A DNA stretch of 64,000 nt from Flavobacteriia bacterium (lineage in GTDB: Bacteria > Bacteroidota > Bacteroidia > Flavobacteriales_D > Crocinitomicaceae), in assembly GCA_016178305.1 (NCBI GenBank), contig JACOTM010000122.1:1-64000 (forward strand), read 5' to 3'. The position numbers and the translations under genes are program-made. This document shows, one piece after another, positions 2,035-17,613 of this stretch. How positions within the stretch are numbered: the first letter of the stretch is position 1; the number at the start of each line of letters is the position of its first letter. The notes beneath the pieces are model-generated. The model saw nothing but the letters and a program-made list of their open reading frames with translations. It made no database searches and was not told the DNA's origin.

Positions 2035-3555
2035 TCAATGAGCTTCTTCTTTAGGATCTTCTGGTATTAATTTGGGTGCATTTTTTACATTTTGTAAATT
2101 ATCCAAGAAATCTTCCAATTGAGAAATAGACAATTGTTTTGCTATAATATTTTTATTTTTATCCAAAACAAAGACTCTTGGAGTAGATACAACATCATAA
2201 TAATCATCGTATTTAACAGACTCCATTGTGGTAAATTTTGGGATCACCTGATTTGCGTTTGTGGTAACAATCCGATACAAAGATTCTGTCAAAGCGACAT
2301 TGGTAAATGTCAAATGATTTTCTTTAATAAACTTTTTCCATAATTCATAATCTTTCCCCATAGCAGCTGTTACAGCAAAAACTTCCACATTTCTCGCTTT
2401 CAGTTTTTCCGCGTATAACTTTTGAAGTTTTGGAGTTGTTATTTTACAATGACCACATTCAGGAGACCAAAAATAAAGTATTGTATATTCACTTTTCAGG
2501 CTATAAAAATCTTTCCAAACTTTATCTGTTGTATCTAAAAGGATAATGTTCGCCGCTTTTACTCCAACAACTAAATTTTTTTGAACATTAATTTTACTGC
2601 AAAAATCTTCTATCTTATCTTCTTTCATCCAAATAGCGGGATATTTACCTTCGCTATTTTTCGTACAGATGTATTTTTCTCCTATTTTGATCCAAACTTT
2701 ATCCATTCCCATGATTTTGTTCTTCTCAAAAGAAGTCATCATCCAAGTAACGGTCAATTCATAAACTTTTGATTTTGGGTTTAATTTATCAATTAATTCA
2801 TAACCATATTTCAAAATTGAATCAGGATGTTGAATCATCATTGTCTTGCCAAAATAAGTATCTAACTTATTATTATATAAAGGAGTACTTGCTATCCTAT
2901 CATCTTTCAAATCAAAATTATCAAAAAAATGAGTTCTATAATATTTGTATTGAAACAAAGAATCTATAATTCTTCCATCTTTATCTTTAGGAGGTTCTGG
3001 AATCTGAATATCTAATGACATTTTTACAATTTTGGAAACAAATGTACTTGGATTTGTTTCCATTAATTTATTTTGAAAAGCTAATACTTCTTCTGAAATC
3101 AGTTTAATTTTTTGAGTAAATTCTTTGTATTTAGGATCATTAACATCTTTTATTTTAGCTTGTTCTTCAGATAGCTTATTCATCTCAATACGTTTATCAC
3201 TTAAATAATTCATGTATTCAACAAACAACTTATTTTCAGCAGATTTTTTAACTTTCATGTTTTTAAAATAATCTGGTCCGAATGTTTCAATTTCTACTTC
3301 CTCATTGTTATAAACAAATTCAAAATACTTTTGACCTGGCAATAAAACAGCTAAAATTCCTGGCAATTGTTTTTGACCATTAAACTCTACTATCCCCCCT
3401 TTAATATTAGCCGTATCAGCATAATATAATTTATTTCCAGTATATCTACAAAGATGAATTGTTGTATCTTTTTGACCAACAATGTTAAACTTTATTTTTT
3501 GAGCATAAATAGTTGTTAGACTAAAAATGGAAATTAGAATTAATATATTTTTCAT
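2035..3555 (-). CDS. TlpA-like thioredoxin-fold protein with DUF4369/DUF5106-type N-terminal region (paralog B)
   Basis: Envelope thiol-disulfide protein of a type common in Bacteroidota. A signal peptide (ending TTIYA-Q, about residue 18) is followed by a beta-rich region resembling DUF4369 (about 20-100), a helical middle part resembling DUF5106, and a C-terminal TlpA/AhpC-like thioredoxin domain from about residue 345. The active site is Cys367-Gly-His-Cys370 inside YFWSPECGHC; the later cis-Pro region (STPRVFVLDK) is also present. It lies 24 bases downstream of a close paralog (3580-5058) and shares its length plan, active site and C-terminal LSISQLEDFLD stretch, so the pair is a tandem duplication and probably one transcript. 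Substrate and reducing partner are not known; reduction of envelope cysteines is an inference from the fold. Confidence 0.88.
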   Translation of the reverse strand: MKNILILISIFSLTTIYAQKIKFNIVGQKDTTIHLCRYTGNKLYYADTANIKGGIVEFNGQKQLPGILAVLLPGQKYFEFVYNNEEVEIETFGPDYFKNMKVKKSAENKLFVEYMNYLSDKRIEMNKLSEEQAKIKDVNDPKYKEFTQKIKLISEEVLAFQNKLMETNPSTFVSKIVKMSLDIQIPEPPKDKDGRIIDSLFQYKYYRTHFFDNFDLKDDRIASTPLYNNKLDTYFGKTMMIQHPDSILKYGYELIDKLNPKSKVYELTVTWMMTSFEKNKIMGMDKVWIKIGEKYICTKNSEGKYPAIWMKEDKIEDFCSKINVQKNLVVGVKAANIILLDTTDKVWKDFYSLKSEYTILYFWSPECGHCKITTPKLQKLYAEKLKARNVEVFAVTAAMGKDYELWKKFIKENHLTFTNVALTESLYRIVTTNANQVIPKFTTMESVKYDDYYDVVSTPRVFVLDKNKNIIAKQLSISQLEDFLDNLQNVKNAPKLIPEDPKEEAH

Positions 3556-3579: not shown

Positions 3580-5058
3580 TTATTGTTTCATTTGTTCATC
3601 CTCTTCAGGATCGGGGGGAAATAACTTTGGAGCATCTTTAATATTTTGAAGTTTATCTAAGAAATCCTCTAACTGAGAGATAGACAACTGTTTAGCAATG
3701 ATTTTTTTATCCTTATCTAATACAAACACACGTGGTGTTGAATAAATATCGAATGTTTTTGAAAAATTAAGAGCTTCTAATGTCGTAAATTGAAGAAATG
3801 GACGCGCATCTGTCATTGCGGCTTTATACAAAGCATCTGTCAAAGCAACATTAATAAATGTCAAATGATTATCTTTTATAAACTTTTTCCATAATTCAAA
3901 ATCTTTATCAATTGCTTTTGAAACTGCAAAAACTTCAATATTTCTTGCTTTAAATTTTTCGGCATACAATCGTTGTAATTTAGGTGTTGTTTTTTTACAA
4001 TGGCCACATTCAGGATCCCAAAAATAGAGAATTGTATATTCACTTTTTAAACTATAATAATCTTGCCATTTTGTATCTGACGAATCTTTCAAACAAATAT
4101 TTGGCGGAACAATCCCTAAAATAGTATATTTTTGGGCATTAGCTCTTTCACACAATTCTTTTAATTTTTCTTCAGGCATCCAAAAAGCAGGTGATTTACC
4201 TTCTGAATTTTGAGAACAATAATAACGTTCAGCCATTTTTACAAAAACTTTATCCATTCCCATGATATTACTTTTTTCATAGTTAGAAGTAATCCATGTT
4301 AAACAAAATTCAAATGTTTTCGTTTTTTGATCCAATCTATCTAAAAAATCATATCCGTATTTTATTATTGTATCCCAGTGCTGAACCATCATATTTTTAC
4401 TAAAATATCCTTCCACTTTATTTTGAAAAATAGGTGTATTAACTAATCTTTCATCTTTTAAATCTACATTATCAAAATAATGGGTGCGATAGAAATGATA
4501 TTGAAACAAAGAATCAATGATTACACCATTTTTATCTTTTGGAGCAGGTGGAATCACAATGTCCATAGACATCTTAACAATTTTAGAAACTAATCTTGCT
4601 GGATTATTAGCTATTAAATCTTTTTGATATTGAACGACTTCATCTGAAATAGCTTTCAATTTTTCTTTCTCAGTTGTAGTGCTTGATTCTTTTCGTTTCA
4701 CAGCTAAATATTGCATATAAGTCACGAAAACTTTATTTTCCTCTGACTTTTTCACCTTCATTGTTTGAATAAAATCAGTCGTTGACGTTTCAATAGTTAC
4801 GTCTTCATTGTTATAAATAAATTCAAAATACTTTTGTCCAGGCATTAACACAGCTAAAATTCCTGGTTTTTGTTTGGACCCATCGAATACGACATCTCCA
4901 CCTTTAATCAAAGCTGTGTCCGCATAGTACAAATTTTTGCCATAATATCTAACTAAATGAACTGTTGTATCTTTTTGGCCAATAATTTTAAATTTCAATT
5001 TTTGACTAAACGAAATTGATGAAATCAAAATAATTGCTAACAAAAGTATTTTCCTCAT
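3580..5058 (-). CDS. TlpA-like thioredoxin-fold protein with DUF4369/DUF5106-type N-terminal region (paralog A)
   Basis: First gene of the tandem pair. Signal peptide (residues 1-18, ending SSISFS-Q), DUF4369-like beta domain with the IGQKDTTVHLVRYYG stretch, a charged helical middle region, and a TlpA-like thioredoxin domain with Cys351-Gly-His-Cys354 (WDPECGHC). It differs from its neighbour by about 14 residues of length in the middle part and by an acidic, Pro-rich tail (PPDPEEDEQ) ending in MKQ. A promoter -7 box (TAACTTTG) lies 45 bases upstream of the start. The family is clear; the biological role is inferred only from the fold and the export signal. Confidence 0.88.
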   Translation of the reverse strand: MRKILLLAIILISSISFSQKLKFKIIGQKDTTVHLVRYYGKNLYYADTALIKGGDVVFDGSKQKPGILAVLMPGQKYFEFIYNNEDVTIETSTTDFIQTMKVKKSEENKVFVTYMQYLAVKRKESSTTTEKEKLKAISDEVVQYQKDLIANNPARLVSKIVKMSMDIVIPPAPKDKNGVIIDSLFQYHFYRTHYFDNVDLKDERLVNTPIFQNKVEGYFSKNMMVQHWDTIIKYGYDFLDRLDQKTKTFEFCLTWITSNYEKSNIMGMDKVFVKMAERYYCSQNSEGKSPAFWMPEEKLKELCERANAQKYTILGIVPPNICLKDSSDTKWQDYYSLKSEYTILYFWDPECGHCKKTTPKLQRLYAEKFKARNIEVFAVSKAIDKDFELWKKFIKDNHLTFINVALTDALYKAAMTDARPFLQFTTLEALNFSKTFDIYSTPRVFVLDKDKKIIAKQLSISQLEDFLDKLQNIKDAPKLFPPDPEEDEQMKQ

Positions 5059-7079: not shown

Positions 7080-7829
7080 CTAGTCAAAATCAATTTGCTC
7101 TGGATAGGTAATCAAAACCGCTCGATGAGCTTTCTGAAACACGAACAAACTTCCTGCTGCTAATGCTGAAGCTCCTATTTTTTTTGCCAATCTTAAATCA
7201 TTTATTGATCCAGCACCACCTAAAGCCACAACAGGTATTTTAACAGATTTTGCAACAGACTCAATTAATTTTAAATCATAACCCGACATCGTACCATCTT
7301 GATCAATTGAATTGATGATAATTTCACCTACGCCTGCATCTTCCATTTTTTTAGCATAATCGATAGGTGAATAGTTCGTGTTATTTTCTCCACTTAATGT
7401 ATAGACGGCTTGTTTTTTTGTTAGCCAATGTTTTTTAACATCAATTGAAGCGACAATACTTTGAGAACCAAAAATATCAGTTGCTTTTTTAATTAATTCA
7501 GGATAGGAATGTGTTATTGAATTTAAAATTACTTTTTCAACACCTAAATTAAATAATTTTTCAATTTGTTCAATTGTTGAAATTCCACCACCATAACCAA
7601 GGGGCATAAAACATTCGGTCGTAATTTCAGAAATCAACTTAAAATTAGGTCCTTTTTTCTCCTTAGAAGCTGTAATATCTAAGAATACTAATTCATCCAC
7701 TTCTTTATCATTGAAAATTTTAATCGCATTTATTGGATCTCCAATATAAGTTGGATTTTTAAATTTGATTGTTTTCACTAATCCGTTGTCTTTTAACAAA
7801 AGACAAGGAATAACACGTGTTCTTAGCAT
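7080..7829 (-). CDS. HisF2-type imidazole-glycerol-phosphate synthase subunit for acetamidino sugar modification
   Basis: TIM-barrel protein of 249 residues related to HisF. In this setting it is expected to pair with HisH and feed ammonia to a WbpG-type amidotransferase, not to make histidine. The start reads MLRTRVIPCLLLKD: the position of the first catalytic acid of true HisF (Asp11) is Leu11, while the second, Asp130 (ASIDVKK), is kept. Phosphate-binding glycine loops (GYGGGIST; ALGGAGS) remain. Loss of Asp11 fits the HisF2/AglZ-like group. The gene overlaps the end of hisH-like 7823-8437 by 7 bases, so they are translated together. No other his gene is nearby. The possibility that it is a normal histidine enzyme is unlikely because of Leu11. 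Confidence 0.87.
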   Translation of the reverse strand: MLRTRVIPCLLLKDNGLVKTIKFKNPTYIGDPINAIKIFNDKEVDELVFLDITASKEKKGPNFKLISEITTECFMPLGYGGGISTIEQIEKLFNLGVEKVILNSITHSYPELIKKATDIFGSQSIVASIDVKKHWLTKKQAVYTLSGENNTNYSPIDYAKKMEDAGVGEIIINSIDQDGTMSGYDLKLIESVAKSVKIPVVALGGAGSINDLRLAKKIGASALAAGSLFVFQKAHRAVLITYPEQIDFD

Positions 7830-8437
7830 TTTTCAATGAAATTTTTTATTAGTTGCATTCCAAATTTATGACTTTTTTCTGGATGAAATTGAACTCCCAT
7901 TATATTATCCTCATGAATAGCTGAATCGAAATCGTAACCAAAATGAGTTTTCATTAATACATTCGTTTGGTTCTTACATACCGCATGGTATGAATGCACA
8001 AAGTAAAAACGAGAAGGATCTGGAAGATTTTCGCAAAGAGGATGGGAATTAGGAATCAGAACTTCATTCCATCCCATGTGAGGTACTTTTAATTCTGGAA
8101 AACTCTTCAATTGAAATTTTTTAATTTCAGCATCAATCCAACCCAAACCACTAACATTACCTTCTTCGCTGTAATTTCCGAGCAATTGCATACCTAGACA
8201 TATACCTAAAATAGGTGTTTTTTGAATAATCACTTTTTCATTTAAAGCACCTATTAATTCAAGTTCTTTTAAATTTTGCATGGCTTTATCAAATGATCCA
8301 ACACCAGGTAAAATCAGCTTAGTAGCTTTTTTTATCACCTCAACATCAGACGAAACAACAGACTGATAACCAACCTTTTTTATAATGTTAGTTATAGAAC
8401 CTAAGTTCCCCATTTTGTAGTCAACGATAACAATCAT
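7823..8437 (-). CDS. HisH-type glutamine amidotransferase (glutaminase) for acetamidino sugar modification
   Basis: Class I glutamine amidotransferase of 204 residues, the normal HisH length. It hydrolyses glutamine to release ammonia for the partner barrel protein. The catalytic triad is visible: Cys80 in GICLGMQ, His185 and Glu187 in QFHPEKS; the oxyanion-strand region LILPGVGSF is also present. It is the first gene of a two-gene unit with the HisF2-like gene and is divergent from the glycosyltransferase-amidotransferase fusion at 8667, whose C-terminal part is the third member of the known set. A -7 box ends only 4 bases before the ATG, so the message may have almost no leader. The main alternative, histidine biosynthesis, is not supported by the neighbourhood. 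Confidence 0.88.
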   Translation of the reverse strand: MIVIVDYKMGNLGSITNIIKKVGYQSVVSSDVEVIKKATKLILPGVGSFDKAMQNLKELELIGALNEKVIIQKTPILGICLGMQLLGNYSEEGNVSGLGWIDAEIKKFQLKSFPELKVPHMGWNEVLIPNSHPLCENLPDPSRFYFVHSYHAVCKNQTNVLMKTHFGYDFDSAIHEDNIMGVQFHPEKSHKFGMQLIKNFIEKC

Positions 8438-8441
8438 AGCT

Positions 8442-8449
8442 CAAATGTA
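8442..8449 (-). promoter_or_regulatory. Candidate -7 box directly before the hisH-like gene
   Basis: TACATTTG on the minus strand matches TAnnTTTG. Only four bases (AGCT) separate it from the ATG at 8437, so transcription would begin at or next to the start codon. No TTG is seen at the -33 distance. Confidence 0.4.
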
Positions 8450-8666
8450 GTGAATTATTAGAAATATATTAGCGAAAATATTTTTTTGTTTTAGTGAATA
8501 TTTTTTAACTAATTCAAGATTTTAAATGGCGTAAATAAATTTATAACGTACCTAAAATTTTTAATTAATAGAATAGAATCAAGAGTATTCACTAAAAATC
8601 GTTTTATAAAGAGGTTTTTATTAGTAGCTTTACAATAGAAAACCTCAAAACAATGAAAAATTATAA

Positions 8667-11024
8667 ATGAAAGTACTATTTTTTGCAACAAATTCATATC
8701 CCTATGGTAAAGGCGAGCCATTGGTAGCGAATCAGATAGAGTCATTAGCAAAAGAATTTGATAAAATATATATTATCTCATCAGATGAAATAAATGAAAT
8801 AAGTTACGAACTACCTCAAAATGTAGGTCATTTTAAATTATCATTTCGTTTGAATTATATTCAAAAAATTACTGGCTTACTCAATATTTTTAATAAAAAT
8901 GTAGTTGAAGAAAGAAAAATAATTTCAGGTATTTATCATCCTAAAAATTCTTTCTCTATTTTTAAAGTAATGCTCAACTCATTTACTTTAGCTAAACGTT
9001 ACGAAAGGTTTTTTAATAAATTTATAATAAAAAACAAACTTGATAAAGATGAACTTTATTTTCACTCTTATTGGTGTACAGAAGCAGTAATTGGTTTCGC
9101 TTTGTTAAAAAAGAAATACCCAAATTCATGTATGGACTCTAGAATTCATGCTTATGATTTATATTTAGAGAGACATAATCCCGAATATTTACCGTTTAGA
9201 AAATTAATCATTGATAATATTAATAAATTGTTCTTTATTTCAGAACAAGGAAAAAAATATTTTGAAAACAAATACCAAAAATTCATTAAACATGATCAGT
9301 TGATTATTAATAGACTAGGTGTAAATCATTTGGTTGACTTAAATATTCCGAAAGAAAAAAATGTTTTTAATGGAATTAGAATTGTCAGTTGTTCTTCAAT
9401 AATTGAACTAAAAAGACTTAATTTAATTATCGAAACACTTTCGTTAATCGATAATCTTTGCATAGAATGGATTCATTTTGGAGATGGGTATTTACAAAAT
9501 GAAATAGAGCATTATGCAGAAGATAAATTATTAAACAAAAAAAATATTAGTTACCAATTTAAAGGATTTATTGATAACGAAAAATTACATTATTATTATC
9601 AAGAAAATCAAGTAGATCTTTTTATTAATACGAGTTTATATGAAGGAATTCCTATAAGTATTATGGAAGCGTTTGCTTTTAGAATACCTTGCATTGCAAC
9701 TAATGTTGGAGGAGTTTCCGAAATAGTAAATGAGGAAAATGGATTTTTATTGAATAGTGATTTTGAATTGAACGAATTAAAAGAAATTATTTATTCATTT
9801 AATTCATTTTCAAGGGATATTAAATTAAAATTTCAAAAAAATGCTTTTGACACATGGTATAAAGATTACAATGGCGTAACAAATTATAATAATTTAATTA
9901 AAAATATCGTACCAGCTTTTAAGCAATGCTCACGTTGTTTATATGACAATAAGGATTATCCTGAAATAAAATTTGATATTGAAGGAGTTTGTGATATCTG
10001 TCATATTTATGATGATTTACAAGCTAAAACGGTATTTAAAAATGATGAAGGTGAAAAAAAACTAAAAAGTTTATTATCTAAAATTAAAGAAACGGGTAAA
10101 AATAAACAATATGATTGTATTTTAGGTGTTAGCGGAGGAGTTGACAGTAGTTATTTAGCCTCTTTAGCCAAAGAATGGGGATTGAAACCATTAATCTTAC
10201 ATGTCGATAATGGTTGGAATAGTGAGTTAGCAACGAAAAATATTGAAAATATATTAAAAGTTTTAAATTATGATTTATATACACATGTGATAAATTGGGA
10301 AGAAATGAAAGATATGCAGCTTTCATTTCTTAAAGCATCAGTTGTAGATATTGATCTTCCTTTTGATAATGCCTTTATGGCGATATTATATCAAATTGCA
10401 AAAAAATATAAAATAAAATATATCCTTTCTGGTCATAACACAGTAACAGAAGGCTGGATGCCCCCAAATTTTACACATTACAAATTGGATACGATTAATT
10501 TAAAAGCTATCCATAATCAATTTAGTGATCTAAAAACTAAATCTTTCCCATTAATTAGCCCCTTTAAACTTTGGTTTTATAATAAATTATACAAAGTTAA
10601 ATTTGTTTCTCCTTTAGATTTTGTAGAATATAATAAAGCCGAAGTAAAGAAAAAATTAATCGAACATTTAGGCTGGAAAGATTATGGGGGAAAACATTAT
10701 GAGAATTTATTTACTAAGTTTTATCAAGGTTATATTTTACCTGAAAAATTTAAAATAGATAAAAGAAAAGCTCATTTATCAACATTAATTTGCTCGAAAC
10801 AAATATCAAAAAAAGAGGCATTAGAAGAGATTCAATTACCCGCATATCTTGAATCTGAACTGGAGCAAGATAAAGAATTTTTCAGAAAAAAAATGGGACT
10901 TGAAGCAGCTGAATTTGAACAGATAATGAGAGAACCAATTAAAAGGCATACAGACTATCCTTCATATATAAATATGATCAATCGATTAAGAAAGATTAAA
11001 TATCTTTTTATTAAACATAAATAA
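8667..11024 (+). CDS. Fusion: GT4-like glycosyltransferase + WbpG/PseA-type N-acetyl sugar amidotransferase
   Basis: A 785-residue two-domain protein. Residues 1 to about 410 are a GT-B glycosyltransferase: N-terminal GKGEPLVANQIESL, nucleotide-sugar site around residues 325-355 with the EGIPISIME pair of acidic residues and a GGVSEIV loop. From about residue 420 there is a complete WbpG-type amidotransferase: a Cys-rich zinc-binding start (CSRCLYDN...GVCDIC), then the PP-loop ATP-pyrophosphatase motif GVSGGVDSS near residue 487, followed by HVDNGW and SGHNT. WbpG uses ammonia from HisH/HisF2 to convert an acetamido group to acetamidino; those partners are encoded divergently next door. WbpG homologs are normally about 370-380 residues and separate, so the fusion is notable. 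No stop or frameshift occurs at the junction. The sugar acceptor and donor are unknown. Confidence 0.9.
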   Translation: MKVLFFATNSYPYGKGEPLVANQIESLAKEFDKIYIISSDEINEISYELPQNVGHFKLSFRLNYIQKITGLLNIFNKNVVEERKIISGIYHPKNSFSIFKVMLNSFTLAKRYERFFNKFIIKNKLDKDELYFHSYWCTEAVIGFALLKKKYPNSCMDSRIHAYDLYLERHNPEYLPFRKLIIDNINKLFFISEQGKKYFENKYQKFIKHDQLIINRLGVNHLVDLNIPKEKNVFNGIRIVSCSSIIELKRLNLIIETLSLIDNLCIEWIHFGDGYLQNEIEHYAEDKLLNKKNISYQFKGFIDNEKLHYYYQENQVDLFINTSLYEGIPISIMEAFAFRIPCIATNVGGVSEIVNEENGFLLNSDFELNELKEIIYSFNSFSRDIKLKFQKNAFDTWYKDYNGVTNYNNLIKNIVPAFKQCSRCLYDNKDYPEIKFDIEGVCDICHIYDDLQAKTVFKNDEGEKKLKSLLSKIKETGKNKQYDCILGVSGGVDSSYLASLAKEWGLKPLILHVDNGWNSELATKNIENILKVLNYDLYTHVINWEEMKDMQLSFLKASVVDIDLPFDNAFMAILYQIAKKYKIKYILSGHNTVTEGWMPPNFTHYKLDTINLKAIHNQFSDLKTKSFPLISPFKLWFYNKLYKVKFVSPLDFVEYNKAEVKKKLIEHLGWKDYGGKHYENLFTKFYQGYILPEKFKIDKRKAHLSTLICSKQISKKEALEEIQLPAYLESELEQDKEFFRKKMGLEAAEFEQIMREPIKRHTDYPSYINMINRLRKIKYLFIKHK

Positions 11025-11027
11025 TAA

Positions 11028-12347
11028 ATGAAAAAAATTCTGATAATTTCGTATTTCTATCAACCATGTAATTTAACAGCATCTCAAAGAGTTGGTGGTT
11101 GGGCAAAATATTTATCAGAATATGGCTTCTACCCAATCATAATTACTCGTAATTGGGATCAAAAAATTAATTCACCAGAAGATGTGTTATTAGATTCAGG
11201 AAACGAATTGATTCATGAAAAAACAAATCAACAAGAGATCTATTATTTACCCTATAAAGCAAGCCAAAGGGATCGGATATATAGCTCCAATAAAGGTCGA
11301 AAAAAAATTCAGAAATTAAGTAAACTTTTTACATTAAAAGATTTAATATTTGAGAATTATTCAAATAGTGTAATTCCTTTCTCTAATATTTATAATCAGG
11401 CCAGATCATTATTAAAAATTGATAAATCTATTGAATTAATGATAATTTCAGGTAATCCTTTTATTCAATTTAAATTTGGCTATTTACTACATCAAGAATT
11501 TGGAATTAAATGGATTGCAGATTATAGAGACGATTGGAATACCTCAGAATTAAACTCAAATTTAAGTTCATTTCAAAAAATAATTTCAAAAATACAAACT
11601 AAAAGCGAAAAAAAATGGATTAATACTGCTGAATGCATCACTTCAGTATCAAATGTTTATGCTAGTAAAATAAGTAGTTTTGTAAATAAACCAGGATATG
11701 TTATATTAAATGGATTTGATGAGATTAACATTAATCTAAATGAAAAGTTAAATTCAAATGAATATAATATTACATACAATGGTAGTTTGTATAGCACGCA
11801 ACCTATCGAGCCTTTTATTAAGGTCATAAAAAAAATTATAGCAGATAATTCAATTTCATTAAAAATCAACATTAATTTCCCTGGATTAGCATTTGATAAA
11901 ATTCAAAAAAAAAGAGTCGAAGAAGCATTTAAAGGTCATGAAAAAAATATTTTTATAACTGAACGAATTTCAAAAAAAGAAGTTCTAGAAATACAACAAA
12001 AATCTGATTTACTATTAATGTTTTCTCATTTGAATATTAAGGGTATTCCAAGCAGTAAATTATACGAATACATTGGATTAAAAAAACCTATTCTGCTTTT
12101 TCCAAATGACCATGATATTATCGAAGAAACATTATTATTTTGTAAATTAGGAATTATTTGTTCCAATGAAAATGATATCTATAATTACCTTTATAACGAT
12201 ATAATTAAGAAACAAAATGGATTAAAAAAAGAAATCAATTTAGATTTTGATAAAATTGATTTCTTCTCCAGAAAAAGACAAACTGCCGAACTTGCAAAAT
12301 TGTTAAATAAAATTCTCTCCCATCCTCATGAACACTCAAAGAATTAA
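11028..12347 (+). CDS. Glycosyltransferase, GT-B fold (GT4-like)
   Basis: Putative glycosyltransferase of 439 residues. It starts KKILIISYFYQPCNLTASQRVGGWAK, a pattern seen in GT4-like enzymes of surface polysaccharide loci, with an N-terminal Rossmann domain, a WIADYRDDW stretch, and a C-terminal part containing the donor-binding region (SKLYEYIGLKKPILLF near residue 345). It begins 3 bases after the fusion gene ends, and its own end overlaps the acyltransferase start by 20 bases, so the run is one operon. Base composition is extremely AT-rich: I counted 11 G+C in the 60 bases of 11941-12000. The family is likely; donor and acceptor sugars cannot be read from the sequence. Confidence 0.82.
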   Translation: MKKILIISYFYQPCNLTASQRVGGWAKYLSEYGFYPIIITRNWDQKINSPEDVLLDSGNELIHEKTNQQEIYYLPYKASQRDRIYSSNKGRKKIQKLSKLFTLKDLIFENYSNSVIPFSNIYNQARSLLKIDKSIELMIISGNPFIQFKFGYLLHQEFGIKWIADYRDDWNTSELNSNLSSFQKIISKIQTKSEKKWINTAECITSVSNVYASKISSFVNKPGYVILNGFDEININLNEKLNSNEYNITYNGSLYSTQPIEPFIKVIKKIIADNSISLKININFPGLAFDKIQKKRVEEAFKGHEKNIFITERISKKEVLEIQQKSDLLLMFSHLNIKGIPSSKLYEYIGLKKPILLFPNDHDIIEETLLFCKLGIICSNENDIYNYLYNDIIKKQNGLKKEINLDFDKIDFFSRKRQTAELAKLLNKILSHPHEHSKN

Positions 12348-13365
12348 CGAATTAGATGCTTTAAGAGGTGTGGCAGCAATTTTGGTTGTGCTTTTCCATT
12401 GTTCAATGGGCCGTGTAGAAGCTAAGTACGGATTTGTTTACGGAAAAACAGGTGTCGATTTGTTTTTTTTAATTAGTGGTTTTGTTATCTATAAAAGTAT
12501 TCGTGAAAATGAAACATTAAAATCTTTTATGATTAAACGATTTTGTCGTTTATATCCAACTTATTGGGCTGGTGTGTTTATAACTTACTTCTTTATTTTA
12601 TCATACAGCTACTTGGGAAATCATCCATCAATGTATATCAAATTTTCAGATTTCCTGATTAATCTCTCAATGTTTCAGAATTATTTTAAAGTTGCAAATC
12701 TTGATGGACCATATTGGACATTATCGGTTGAGATGAACTTTTATATCATTATCGGCCTACTTCTTTTTTTTAGAAAATTGAAATATTTTATATTAATTGG
12801 AATTGGTTTATGTGTTTATAACGCAATCGTTTTAGCTTATTCTATAGACAATTATATGGTAAATCAAATCAGTTTTTTTTTACCAATTTTAATGTACACT
12901 CCTTTATTTATTGCTGGGATGGCTTTTTATAGAATCTTTGAAAATAAAAGTTCAAACTGGACAAATTACGGTATTGTGATTACTTGTTTTTTATTTAAAA
13001 TGTTTTTTCTTAAAATTGATTATATTGGTGAAAATAGTTTTATTTCATTTGAAGAACATATTATTACTCAGTTTATTTACTTTATGTTATTTATCGCTTT
13101 TGTAAATAACTATTTAGGATTTATTGCAAATAAAGTAACTCTTTTTTTAGGCCGTATTTCATATTCTATGTATTTGATACATCAGTTTCTAGTTTTCTAT
13201 ATCATTCTTCCTTTTGCTATCGAGAAGTTAAAAATAAATTTTTATATCGCAACTTTTTGTTTTGCTCTACCCGTTGTAATCTTAATCGCAACTTTTATTA
13301 CGTATAGAATTGAAATCCCATTGAATAACAAAATAAGAACTTATTTATTAAAAAATCAACTTTAG
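12328..13365 (+). CDS. Acyltransferase 3 (OafA/WbbJ-like) membrane O-acyltransferase
   Basis: Integral membrane acyltransferase of 345 residues, expected to add acetyl or another acyl group to a sugar of the surface glycan. The family start NELDALRGVAAILVVLFHC carries the conserved Arg and His; GVDLFFLISGFVI and DGPYWTLSVEMNFY are further hallmarks. About ten hydrophobic helices fill the rest, without the extra SGNH domain found in longer relatives. It overlaps the preceding glycosyltransferase by 20 bases, which suggests translational coupling. The family is certain; the acyl group and target sugar are inferred only from its position in the glycan cluster. Confidence 0.92.
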   Translation: MNTQRINELDALRGVAAILVVLFHCSMGRVEAKYGFVYGKTGVDLFFLISGFVIYKSIRENETLKSFMIKRFCRLYPTYWAGVFITYFFILSYSYLGNHPSMYIKFSDFLINLSMFQNYFKVANLDGPYWTLSVEMNFYIIIGLLLFFRKLKYFILIGIGLCVYNAIVLAYSIDNYMVNQISFFLPILMYTPLFIAGMAFYRIFENKSSNWTNYGIVITCFLFKMFFLKIDYIGENSFISFEEHIITQFIYFMLFIAFVNNYLGFIANKVTLFLGRISYSMYLIHQFLVFYIILPFAIEKLKINFYIATFCFALPVVILIATFITYRIEIPLNNKIRTYLLKNQL

Positions 13366-13413: not shown

Positions 13414-15321
13414 ATGTGTGGTATTACGGGATTCGCTGATTGGAGAAAGAAATCTTCAGAAGATATTTTGAAACGAATGAATGAGACTTTGAATCATCGA
13501 GGTCCTGATAGCGGTTCAGATATAGTTTTTAATACCGACACTACTCAAATTGGACTGGCTCACAAACGATTAGCAATAATTGACGTGACTGAAACGGGGA
13601 AACAACCGATGCATTTCCAACATTACTGCATCACATACAATGGCGAAATATACAATTTCCCGGAAATCAAAAAAGAATTATCTATTCTTGGACATCAATT
13701 TATCGGGCATTCAGATACAGAAATGATTTTACACGCTTATGCTCAATGGGGAGAAAAGTGTATTGAAAAATTTATCGGAATGTTTGCTTTTGTCCTTTTT
13801 GATCAAGACAAAAACGAGTTGTTCTGCGCAAGAGATCGAGCAGGTATTAAACCTTTTTTCTATTATTTTGACAATGATCTTTTTTTATTCGCTTCAGAAT
13901 TAAAAGCTTTTCATCAGCACCCTGACTTTCAAAAAGAAATTGATTTAGATGCTGTTGCTGCTTTTATGCAATATGGCAATGTTCCTAGTTCAATGTGTAT
14001 TTTTAAAAAATGTCATAAACTGAAACCAGGACATACCTTGAAAATCACTTTAAATAAAACCGAAAAAAAAGAAACAAAACAATATTGGAATGTTTATGAT
14101 GCATACAACAAACCCAAAATAAAATCTTCTTTTGAAGAAGCTAAAATAGAAACCGAAAAAATATTAAAATCGGCTTGTGAATATCGGATGGTATCAGATG
14201 TTCCTGTAGGTGTGTTTTTAAGCGGTGGCTATGATAGTGCATGTGTAACTGCTTTGCTGCAAAAAGATCGTTCAGAAAAATTAAAAACTTACACGATTGG
14301 AGTTCCAGATATTGGTTTAAATGAAGCTCCTTATGCGAAGGATGTAGCAAATCATTTAGGAACAGAGCATACTGAAATTTATTGTACCGAAAAAGAAGCA
14401 ATTAATTTAGTTCCTGAATTAGCTTTTTATTATGATGAACCATTTGCTGATAGTAGTGCTTTACCAACAACTTTGGTAAGTAAATTAGCACGTAAAGATG
14501 TAACAGTCGCTTTAAGCGCAGATGCAGGTGATGAAATTTTTGCTGGTTATAATCGCTATGATTATTTATTGAGGTATGGAAAAAAAATGGAGAAAATACC
14601 TGGATTTGCAAGAAATACTTTAACAGGTTTGATGAATGTAATACCTTCAAATAAAATACCTATCTTAAAAAATAAATATAATTTTCATAATCGTTACGAA
14701 AAATTAAAAACAATCTTAAAAGACCCATCATCTCAACGAATAATGCTGACATTGAGTCAACAATATACAGAAAAACAATTGCGTAAGTTGCTTTTGTTTC
14801 GAACGCAGGAAAACGGAACAGCTTATTTAAGTAACGAATTAAAAACTGAAAATTATTCACCTTTGGCATACATGATGGCAATTGATTATCAAACATATTT
14901 AGTTGATGATATTCTTCAAAAAGTAGATAGAGCTTCAATGACAGTAAGTTTAGAAGGACGTGAACCATTTTTAGATCATCGTGTTATTGAATGGGCAGCA
15001 ACTTTACCAGATACTTATAAATATTTTGACGGGAATAAAAAATATATTATTAAAGAAATCGTTCATCAATATATTCCAAAAAAGTTGATGGATAGACCTA
15101 AAATGGGATTTGCAATTCCTATTGCAAATTGGATGACAAAAGAGTTGAAAGATTATTTAGAATCTTATATCAATGAAAAAACGATTCGTGATCAAGGTAT
15201 TTTTAGATGGGAGACAATAGATAAACTGAAAAAAGATTTTTTTAGTGGGAAGAAAGAATATGATATGAAAATGTGGTATTTATTGATGTTTCAAACATGG
15301 TACGATAGATGGATGAAGTAA
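13414..15321 (+). CDS. asnB: Asparagine synthase (glutamine-hydrolysing), glycan-cluster type
   Basis: AsnB-family enzyme of 635 residues, making an amide bond from an acid using glutamine and ATP. It begins MCGITGF, so Cys2 becomes the N-terminal nucleophile and the start codon is fixed. The glutaminase domain (about 1-210) contains HRGPDS, AHKRLAIID and YNGEIYN; the synthetase domain carries the PP-loop LSGGYDSA near residue 269-276 and EGREPFLDH. AsnB homologs are frequent in polysaccharide loci, where they may amidate a uronic acid instead of aspartate; this is inference from position. The next gene overlaps by 13 bases. GC content is higher than in the preceding genes (15 of 60 in 14881-14940). 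Confidence 0.93.
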   Translation: MCGITGFADWRKKSSEDILKRMNETLNHRGPDSGSDIVFNTDTTQIGLAHKRLAIIDVTETGKQPMHFQHYCITYNGEIYNFPEIKKELSILGHQFIGHSDTEMILHAYAQWGEKCIEKFIGMFAFVLFDQDKNELFCARDRAGIKPFFYYFDNDLFLFASELKAFHQHPDFQKEIDLDAVAAFMQYGNVPSSMCIFKKCHKLKPGHTLKITLNKTEKKETKQYWNVYDAYNKPKIKSSFEEAKIETEKILKSACEYRMVSDVPVGVFLSGGYDSACVTALLQKDRSEKLKTYTIGVPDIGLNEAPYAKDVANHLGTEHTEIYCTEKEAINLVPELAFYYDEPFADSSALPTTLVSKLARKDVTVALSADAGDEIFAGYNRYDYLLRYGKKMEKIPGFARNTLTGLMNVIPSNKIPILKNKYNFHNRYEKLKTILKDPSSQRIMLTLSQQYTEKQLRKLLLFRTQENGTAYLSNELKTENYSPLAYMMAIDYQTYLVDDILQKVDRASMTVSLEGREPFLDHRVIEWAATLPDTYKYFDGNKKYIIKEIVHQYIPKKLMDRPKMGFAIPIANWMTKELKDYLESYINEKTIRDQGIFRWETIDKLKKDFFSGKKEYDMKMWYLLMFQTWYDRWMK

Positions 15322-16571
15322 TTGAATCATATAATTTTCATCAAAATCCAACACATGTGCTTTATCTTTCGTACGACGGAATGACTGATCCGTTAGGACA
15401 ATCACAAGTTTTACCTTATCTGATAGGTTTGAGTAAACATGGCTTTAAATTTCATATCATAAGTTTTGAAAAAAGGAGTCGATTTGAATTACATAAAGAG
15501 CATATTCAACAAATTTGTGATGCAAACGGAATTGTTTGGCATCCTTTAAAATATTCAGAAGGTAATCCAGTTTTTTCTACTGTTTGGGATATATACAAAA
15601 TGAAAAAACAAGCATTGAAATTACATAAAGAATTTAATTTTGAACTAACACATTGTAGAAGTTATATCTCTGCTTTAATTGGTCTTTCGATGAAACGTAA
15701 ACATAATGTAAAATTTGTGTTTGATATGAGGGGTTTTTGGGCAGATGAAAGAGTGGATGGCGGTTTGTGGGACTTGGATAATCCAATTTTTAAAAAGATT
15801 TACAATTATTTCAAAAAGAAAGAAATCTCTTATTTTAATGAGTCTGATTATACGATTTCTTTAACGCATAATGGAAAAAAAGAAATTGAATCTTGGAAAG
15901 TGTTTCAAACTGCAAAGCCTAAGATTCAAGTTATCCCATGCTGTGTCGATTTAGAATTGTTTAAACCGGAATCAATTGATGAAAAAGACCAAGAAGTATT
16001 AAGAAAAAAAATAGGAATTAGTAAACAGGATTATATTATTGGATATGTCGGTTCAATCGGAACTTGGTATATGCTTTCAGAAATGCTTGATTTTTTCAAA
16101 TTTTATAAAGAACGAAATCAGAAAGCAAAGTTTTTATTTGTAACAGGAGAAAAACCTGAAACAATTCGAAAAGAGTTGACATATAAAAAGATAGATGAGA
16201 AAGATGTGATTATTACATCATGTTTACATAAAGAGGTGCCGTTAAATATTTCTTTATTTAATGAGTCTATCTTTTTTATTCGTCCAACCTATTCAAAAAA
16301 AGCGTCATCACCAACTAAACAAGGAGAAATTATGGCGATGGGAATACCATTAATCTGCAATTCAGGAGTAGGAGATACCGATTTCGTAGTCGAAAAATAC
16401 AATGCAGGTAGTATCATTTCAAAATTTGATGCAGAAGCATATAGTTCAATTGATGCGAAAAAAGATTTAAATATTGAAAAAATAAAAAAAGGAGCACAAG
16501 AATTTTATTCATTAGAAGAGGGTGTTAAAAAATATCTCGAAGTATATCAAAGTCTAACGTCTAGAATCTAG
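15309..16571 (+). CDS. Glycosyltransferase family 4 (GT-B)
   Basis: Glycosyltransferase of 420 residues. The typical opening HVLYLSYDGMTDPLGQSQ begins at residue 16, so about 15 extra residues precede the usual start; the ATG at 15309 overlaps asnB by 13 bases and no closer in-frame ATG fits. Further marks are the GFWADERVDGG stretch, the domain linker IPCCVDLELF, IIGYVGSIGTWY, and a C-terminal SPTKQGEIMAMGIPLICN donor-site region. It is probably cotranscribed with asnB and galE and would add one sugar to the lipid-linked repeat unit. Family assignment is strong, specificity unknown. Confidence 0.88.
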   Translation: MDEVIESYNFHQNPTHVLYLSYDGMTDPLGQSQVLPYLIGLSKHGFKFHIISFEKRSRFELHKEHIQQICDANGIVWHPLKYSEGNPVFSTVWDIYKMKKQALKLHKEFNFELTHCRSYISALIGLSMKRKHNVKFVFDMRGFWADERVDGGLWDLDNPIFKKIYNYFKKKEISYFNESDYTISLTHNGKKEIESWKVFQTAKPKIQVIPCCVDLELFKPESIDEKDQEVLRKKIGISKQDYIIGYVGSIGTWYMLSEMLDFFKFYKERNQKAKFLFVTGEKPETIRKELTYKKIDEKDVIITSCLHKEVPLNISLFNESIFFIRPTYSKKASSPTKQGEIMAMGIPLICNSGVGDTDFVVEKYNAGSIISKFDAEAYSSIDAKKDLNIEKIKKGAQEFYSLEEGVKKYLEVYQSLTSRI

Positions 16572-16590: not shown

Positions 16591-17613
16591 ATGAAAACAA
16601 TTATAGTAACAGGAGGAGCAGGATATATTGGTTCGCATACAATCATTGAATTGATAGAAAATACAAATTACCGAATTGTATCGATTGATAATTTTTCGAA
16701 TTCTTATGAATCCACCTTGGATAGAATTGAAGAAATTACAGGAGTAAGAATTCATAACTATAACATTGATTTATGTGATAAAGAGGCTATTAATAATGTT
16801 TTTGAAATAGAAAAAAATGTAATTGGAATAATTCATTTTGCAGCATTTAAGTCTGTTCCAGAATCAGTTGATAATCCTTATAAATATTTTCATAACAATT
16901 TTGAATCATTATTGAATATTCTTGAAGTATCTTTAGCCAATCAGGTTAACCATTTTATTTTTTCTTCTTCTTGTTCTGTTTATGGGAACATAAATAAACT
17001 TCCTGTAAACGAAGACACTACATTGAATAAAGCAGAATCCCCTTACGCTTATACAAAACAAGTAGGAGAAGAAATACTAAAAACTTATACGAATAAGTTT
17101 TCTAATTTAAATGTCGTAGCTCTTCGGTATTTCAATCCAGTTGGAGCACATAGTTCTGGATTGAATGGAGAACTACCTTTAAATAAACCAACTAGTTTAG
17201 TTCCAGTAATCACTCAAACAGCGATTGGAATAAACAAACAAATGGCTGTTTTTGGTGCAGATTATGCCACCAGAGATGGCTCGTGTATTAGAGATTATAT
17301 TCATGTAACAGATATTGCATTAGCACATATTAAAGCATTAGAATATTCAATTTCTAAGAAAAACACGTGTAACTATGCTGTTATTAATTTAGGTTCAGGA
17401 AAAGGAGTTAGTGTCTTTGAAGCTATTACTGCATTTGAAAATGCGACAGGAGAAAAATTAAAATTTGTAGTTCATCCCAAAAGAGAAGGAGATGTGGAGG
17501 CAATTTTCTCGGATACAACAAAAAGTGAAAAAGAATTAAATTGGAAAGCAACTAAAACCATTGAAGAAATGATGTTGTCAGCATGGAAATGGGAACAAAA
17601 TTTAAAAAAGTAG
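16591..17613 (+). CDS. galE: UDP-glucose (or UDP-GlcNAc) 4-epimerase
   Basis: Short-chain dehydrogenase-type epimerase of 340 residues, the normal GalE length. It interconverts UDP-glucose and UDP-galactose, and possibly the N-acetyl forms. The NAD site is TGGAGYIGSH near the N-terminus; the catalytic set is visible as SSSCSVYG (Ser) and YAYTKQ (Tyr and Lys); the family stretches RYFNPVGAH and RDGSCIRDYIHV follow. It is the last gene of the plus-strand glycan run, 19 bases after the glycosyltransferase, and faces the convergent ABC-F gene. Function is certain at the family level; whether it takes N-acetylated sugars cannot be decided by eye. Confidence 0.95.
   Translation: MKTIIVTGGAGYIGSHTIIELIENTNYRIVSIDNFSNSYESTLDRIEEITGVRIHNYNIDLCDKEAINNVFEIEKNVIGIIHFAAFKSVPESVDNPYKYFHNNFESLLNILEVSLANQVNHFIFSSSCSVYGNINKLPVNEDTTLNKAESPYAYTKQVGEEILKTYTNKFSNLNVVALRYFNPVGAHSSGLNGELPLNKPTSLVPVITQTAIGINKQMAVFGADYATRDGSCIRDYIHVTDIALAHIKALEYSISKKNTCNYAVINLGSGKGVSVFEAITAFENATGEKLKFVVHPKREGDVEAIFSDTTKSEKELNWKATKTIEEMMLSAWKWEQNLKK

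Follow-up and report, generated by a model that had tools for sequence, protein, structure and literature searches.

A recurrent fusion of glycosyltransferases to a WbuX-type N-acetyl sugar amidotransferase in Bacteroidia and its possible role in surface-glycan assembly

Introduction

The closest described counterparts of the amidotransferase studied here are WbpG of Pseudomonas aeruginosa O5, WbuX of Escherichia coli O145 and LpNASAT (PDB 8WEX), which share with it the family profile TIGR03573, a tetracysteine, a PP-loop and HisH/HisF2-type partners. The tetracysteine CXXC-Xn-[GN]XCXXC and the PP-loop SGGXDS are typical motifs of the NASAT family, as described in the structure paper on the Legionella enzyme (PMC10607449). 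WbpG, WbuX and LpNASAT are free-standing, whereas the domain described here forms the C-terminal half of a glycosyltransferase fusion. The archaeal acetamidino system of the AglZ/HisF2 family (MMP1081) also includes a WbpG-type amidotransferase. The Methanococcus maripaludis system differs in serving an archaeal N-glycan with a free-standing amidotransferase, and the cited text describes no fusion (PMC2952790). In that organism, a strain deleted for the WbpG homolog MMP1081 still carried the third sugar, which lacked the acetamidino group, and had lost the fourth (PMC2952790). PseA and PtmG are described as CMP-sugar acetamidino synthases that take a nucleotide sugar as substrate (PMC13317340). 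It is an unsettled question if acetamidino formation takes place on activated sugars, on growing chains or on either.

The N-terminal half resembles retaining GT4 glycosyltransferases (TuaC-, BshA- and WcaL-like) in its PF00534 donor domain, its EX7E motif and a profile match to 5d00 over about 300 residues; it differs from them in continuing into an amidotransferase. Here, we analyse this fused protein, its gene cluster and its relatives, starting from a window of 64,000 nucleotides in the genome of a Flavobacteriia bacterium (contig JACOTM010000122.1 of assembly GCA_016178305.1).

Results

Two enzyme halves in one reading frame

The features of the fused gene are as follows.

8667..11024 (+), fused protein of 785 residues, a GT4 glycosyltransferase plus a WbuX-type N-acetyl sugar amidotransferase (frame, family profiles, fused homologs)
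8667..9896 (+), glycosyltransferase half, residues 1-410 (PF00534/PF13692 above cut-off, GT4 structure profile match, invariant residues)
9642..9668 (+), EX7E donor-site motif, E326-E334 (both glutamates invariant in 18 fused proteins)
9897..9926 (+), junction or linker of about 10 residues, 411-420 (no in-frame start codon)
9921..10928 (+), WbuX/NASAT amidotransferase domain, residues 419-754 (TIGR03573 above cut-off)
9927..10001 (+), zinc-type tetracysteine CXXC-Xn-GXCXXC, residues 421-445 (C421, C424, G440, C442 and C445)
10131..10148 (+), PP-loop SGGVDS, residues 489-494 (motif in the fused sequence)

The gene runs from ATG to stop in a single frame without an internal stop. In the glycosyltransferase half, PF00534 covers residues 237-375 with 65.9 bits against a cut-off of 26.4, and PF13692 (60.6 bits) also exceeds its Pfam gathering score; residues 1-236 gave no Pfam match. 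A profile built from the fused homologs matched GT4 crystal structures in the PDB over approximately residues 117-414 (5d00, E 1.8e-17), and none of the specific NCBIfam glycosyltransferase equivalogs reached its cut-off against this half. By its Pfam gathering score and EX7E motif, the half is assigned to the GT4 family. The amidotransferase half scores 273.4 bits with the NCBIfam model TIGR03573 (curated cut-off 203.2) over profile positions 2-343 of 344, and residues 433-511 give a short sequence match to 8WEX (E 4e-7). The full-profile score, the tetracysteine, the PP-loop and the HisH/HisF2-type partners assign the protein to the NASAT/WbuX family. Between codons 369 and 450 there is no in-frame ATG, GTG or TTG, and hence no obvious place where translation of the amidotransferase half alone could begin. 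A sequence-only reading of this DNA had proposed that a glycosyltransferase and an amidotransferase share one 785-residue chain, with CxxC pairs near residue 420 and a PP-loop near 487. The single frame and the family scores bear this out, both halves look intact, and the motifs lie at C421/C424/C442/C445 and 489-494.

The surrounding cluster and a putative amidination route

The genes around the fusion are listed below.

7080..7829 (-), AglZ/HisF2 acetamidino modification protein (NF038364, 372.2 bits, cut-off 310)
7823..8437 (-), HisH-type glutaminase, HisH2 (TIGR01855, 246.6 bits, cut-off 105.4)
8438..8666 (no strand), intergenic region of 229 bp that separates the fused gene from the divergently transcribed HisH2 and HisF2 (open reading frame positions)
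11028..12347 (+), glycosyltransferase-like protein of 439 residues, here GT439, starting 3 nt after the stop of the fused gene (recurrent WbuX neighbour)
12328..13365 (+), acyltransferase 3 family protein (PF01757)
13414..15321 (+), asparagine-synthase-like amidotransferase (TIGR01536 above cut-off)
15309..16571 (+), GT4 glycosyltransferase (PF13439/PF00534)
16591..17613 (+), GalE-type epimerase (TIGR01179, 353.5 bits, cut-off 262.3)

The HisF2 protein thus matches the equivalog of the archaeal acetamidino system. A second HisF of the source genome adjoins HisA on another contig (C24), and the HisH2/HisF2 pair of the window therefore probably does not belong to the histidine pathway. GT439 gave no family match in Pfam or NCBIfam. 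Elsewhere in the window, 2035-3555 and 3580-5058 (-) encode a tandem pair of paralogs of about 500 residues, each of which begins like a signal peptide and carries a thioredoxin-like CGHC motif near the C terminus.

The fused protein is probably a bifunctional enzyme of surface-glycan assembly, in which acetamidino formation would be coupled to glycosyl transfer involving the same sugar. HisH2 would release ammonia from glutamine, and HisF2 would pass it to the C-terminal WbuX half. This half would activate the N-acetyl group of the sugar with ATP through its PP-loop and replace the oxygen by NH, so that an acetamidino sugar results. The GT4 half at the N terminus would carry out glycosyl transfer involving this sugar, so that modification and chain building would take place on one polypeptide. 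That both halves are active, that ammonia takes this route and that the two reactions are coupled is inferred.

Fused homologs and conservation of both halves

Including the protein of the window, 18 GT4-WbuX fusions of the same kind were found in three GTDB families (f1, to which the window belongs, f69 and f91). Eleven further genomes of f1 carry it (G010, G006, G034, G074, G116, G001, G004, G007, G248, G260 and G233), with identities to the fusion of the window of 67% in G010 and 64% in G006; the G233 protein ends at a contig end and is incomplete, yet is counted among the 18. In the family sample, a fusion is present in 13 of the 88 genomes with a WbuX match above cut-off, a count that includes G030, whose partner is a second GT4 (see below). 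The class-wide sample added GT4-WbuX fusions in five genomes of f69 and one of f91, and at least 15 long fusions stand among the matches listed there. The phylum-wide sample of 395 genomes contained no fused WbuX match above cut-off except that of the window; the samples from outside the class were small. Judged by samples of the family, order and phylum, the fusion had seemed confined to f1, which the class sample disproved with its f69 and f91 members and its other partners.

Plasmid and phage records held the halves separately, with no fusion covering 80%, and plasmid records of other phyla held free-standing forms only. A search of IMG/VR returned no relative, and a search for related loci in genome contigs returned distant glycosyltransferases only. 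The WbpG/PseA enzymes had been called free-standing in the sequence-only reading, and this holds for the characterised enzymes; the fused architecture itself is not unique to the source genome, as 17 more GT4-WbuX proteins and the other partners show. Each half belongs to an established family, and the components follow the familiar WbpG-HisH2-HisF2 pattern; domain databases may already list the architecture. A search of a literature collection with few subscription journals did not find a description of the fusion, of its recurrence with several kinds of transferase or of the differing histories of its halves.

A lost stop codon or a frameshift, from sequencing or assembly, might produce such a long frame. 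This explanation is refuted by the many independent genomes whose fused homologs share 40-67% identity and differ in linker length (by at most 7 residues among the 18 fusions), and by the lack of an internal stop. Close homologs split at about residue 410 together with a frameshift here had been named as counter-evidence, and the closest homologs are in fact all fused.

The 18 GT4-WbuX fusions show no variation at E326, E334, R159, H161, D164 and K249, at the four cysteines or at the fixed positions of the PP-loop. It is very improbable that one half is a non-catalytic relic, for example a dead glycosyltransferase domain that targets the amidotransferase to the assembly machinery. The halves are assigned at fold level, and the AlphaFold single-sequence model of the fused protein has a mean pLDDT of 33, which leaves some room for a relic; against it, the 18 proteins, down to about 40% identity, keep the catalytic motifs of each half unchanged or almost unchanged. 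A HisF2-type protein was present in all 13 fusion genomes searched, and in G248, G260 and G233 HisH/HisF2 do not adjoin the fusion gene.

Other fusion partners of the amidotransferase

The WbuX domain was also found behind other partners: a second GT4 in G030, a GT2 in G973 (PF00535, E 6e-37) and, in G995 and G1046, a GT-A-like domain that shows a conserved IIRLDxDD and matches PF00535 weakly in one of the two proteins (E 0.005). In G1101 it follows a short GT4 N-domain and in G1106 a hexapeptide acyltransferase. In G957, G961 and G936 it follows a well-conserved N-terminal domain of 365 residues, which gave no significant match to family profiles or the PDB. The tetracysteine and the PP-loop are kept in all of these other-partner fusions.

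L233:6300-8513 (+), fusion of the 365-residue domain to WbuX (Pfam and PDB searches)
L234:6167-8377 (+), fusion of the 365-residue domain to WbuX (same searches)
L235:6451-8661 (-), fusion of the 365-residue domain to WbuX (same searches)
L240:5946-7730 (+), fusion of a hexapeptide acyltransferase to WbuX

The acyltransferase shows that WbuX joining is not confined to sugar transferases, and that fusion might unite N-acetylation with amidination in a single polypeptide. The other-partner fusions scatter over the WbuX tree, so several separate joinings are likely, and their exact number hangs on poorly supported deep branches. These repeated joinings with different partners suggest that tailoring and building are physically coupled. 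A broader reading, quite possible though short of probable, is that in Bacteroidia a C-terminal amidotransferase has repeatedly been appended to whichever glycosyltransferase (GT4, GT2 or GT-A-like) handles the amidinated sugar of the strain concerned. Within the single chain, the sugar would be channelled from the modifying to the transferring half, and the transferase would be exchanged while the amidotransferase persists.

In a second type of fusion, an N-terminal glutaminase domain of class II (Ntn, GlmS/PurF-like) precedes a WbuX-like domain that is divergent and scores below cut-off (126-145 bits). Such proteins may generate ammonia by themselves, yet in L086 the fusion is immediately followed by HisH and HisF genes.

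L082:204-2225 (+), class II glutaminase-WbuX-like fusion
L083:4727-6781 (+), class II glutaminase-WbuX-like fusion
L084:99-1946 (-), class II glutaminase-WbuX-like fusion
L085:1160-3196 (-), class II glutaminase-WbuX-like fusion
L086:4157-6091 (+), class II glutaminase-WbuX-like fusion

Furthermore, HisH and AglZ/HisF2 are combined in one protein of 516 residues at L119:9676-11226 (-), adjoining a free-standing WbuX gene.

Different histories of the two halves

The 12 WbuX halves of f1 form one clade (bootstrap 100, SH-aLRT 99). A single clade of the corresponding glycosyltransferase halves was rejected (p 9e-6), was still rejected when two free transferases that are possible fission products were left out (p 0.007), and was rejected again with all 18 fusions in the tree. 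A single WbuX clade of the 18 GT4-WbuX fusions was not rejected (AU p 0.22). Co-inheritance of the donor (C-terminal) glycosyltransferase domain alone with WbuX was also considered and discarded, as the N- and C-domains alike reject one clade. Since the WbuX halves of f1 form one clade and the glycosyltransferase halves do not, the partner has probably been exchanged or joined repeatedly. Exchange of the transferase under a persistent amidotransferase, fission that released free transferases, and repeated fusion would all three fit the trees.

These histories bear on a different role for the fusion, in which the WbuX half amidinates a lipid-linked sugar and the glycosyltransferase half adds the next, different sugar, the fusion serving as an ordering or proof-reading device. 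We regard this acceptor model as possible, on the doubtful side. Changing glycosyltransferase halves beside a constant WbuX half are expected if the next sugar differs among strains, and partners of several glycosyltransferase kinds, even an acyltransferase, fit it as well. The MMP1081 deletion likewise suggests a downstream transferase that requires a marked acceptor (PMC2952790). On the other side, PseA and PtmG are described as acting on a nucleotide sugar, so members of the family can work before transfer (PMC13317340).

Split relatives and a second candidate transferase

Among 48 free-standing WbuX loci, HisH lies near the WbuX gene in 39 and HisF likewise in 39. Some split relatives place a homolog of the glycosyltransferase half close by: G172 has separate adjacent genes in the order glycosyltransferase-half homolog, HisH, HisF2 and WbuX, and in G112, G114 and G025 the homolog lies a few kb from a free WbuX. 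On a Massilia litorea plasmid (NZ_CP062942.1, LPB04_RS23395-23410), one operon encodes a glycosyltransferase, HisH, AglZ/HisF2 and an N-acetyl sugar amidotransferase, and the glycosyltransferase gene overlaps HisH-HisF2-WbuX. Its neighbours encode a nucleotide-sugar dehydrogenase, a Gfo/Idh/MocA oxidoreductase, an acyltransferase and a DegT aminotransferase. Such a set is expected for a 2,3-diamino uronic acid (WbpA/B/E/D). The operon resembles the locus of the window in its components, and differs in that the genes are separate and the glycosyltransferase has no recognisable homology to the fused half.

Homologs of GT439 occur near WbuX in 29 of the 48 free-standing loci and 9 of 13 fusion loci, and each of the six f69/f91 loci has one close to the fusion. 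This frequent proximity makes GT439 a rival candidate transferase for the amidinated sugar. For a transferase dependent on the acetamidino mark, it would be as good a candidate as the fused half. The cluster at L239:5150-13122 (-) has two WbuX domains, a free one and another fused to a GT-A-like domain, and each is directly followed by a GT439 homolog.

The fusion might accordingly serve co-expression or complex formation only, with another enzyme such as GT439 transferring the acetamidino sugar and the fused glycosyltransferase handling a different, unrelated sugar within the repeat unit. The recurrence of GT439 homologs and the position of GT439 immediately after the fused gene in the window favour this idea, as does the rarity of homologs of the glycosyltransferase half near free-standing WbuX genes (just 5 of 48). 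We nevertheless consider it unlikely, because genes that already share a cluster would have no need of joinings to several kinds of glycosyltransferase.

Candidate substrate

Contig C113 of the source genome carries WbpE/WbpB/WbpD/WbpA-like genes together, encoding an aminotransferase, a TviB-like UDP-GlcNAc 6-dehydrogenase, a Gfo/Idh/MocA-like oxidoreductase and a hexapeptide-type acetyltransferase, which do not reach the equivalog cut-offs for the exact functions. Two WecB-type epimerases are encoded elsewhere in the source genome. The most plausible substrate, offered as a lead only, would be a diamino-sugar uronic acid such as UDP-GlcNAc3NAcA/ManNAc3NAcA, as for WbpG. Pseudaminic or legionaminic acid (Pse/Leg) was also considered. 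The source genome has a NeuB-type synthase; in 6 of 13 fusion genomes the NeuB match is weak (<31 bits) or absent, so that without a convincing nonulosonate synthase in these genomes Pse or Leg cannot be the general substrate.

Discussion

The sequence-only reading had linked amidination to glycosyl transfer and had taken the modified sugar to be the one handled by the fused glycosyltransferase. The link itself gains from the repeated joinings to different glycosyltransferases and from the split loci of G172 and Massilia litorea, which keep glycosyltransferase, HisH, HisF2 and WbuX together. The identity of the sugar is less secure, as the MMP1081 data and GT439 leave another transferase as an equally good candidate. 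Retention of the third sugar after the deletion indicates that the mark there is not needed for transfer of the sugar itself (PMC2952790). For the coupling of both activities to one sugar, we slightly favour an amidinated nucleotide sugar as the donor, handed over by the WbuX half to the fused glycosyltransferase.

The fusion points to a transferase that deals with the modified sugar. An amidotransferase joined to a glycosyltransferase, repeatedly and with different glycosyltransferases, makes the question of the site of amidination testable with one purified enzyme. It could also help to predict acetamidino sugars from sequence in the surface glycans of environmental Bacteroidota.
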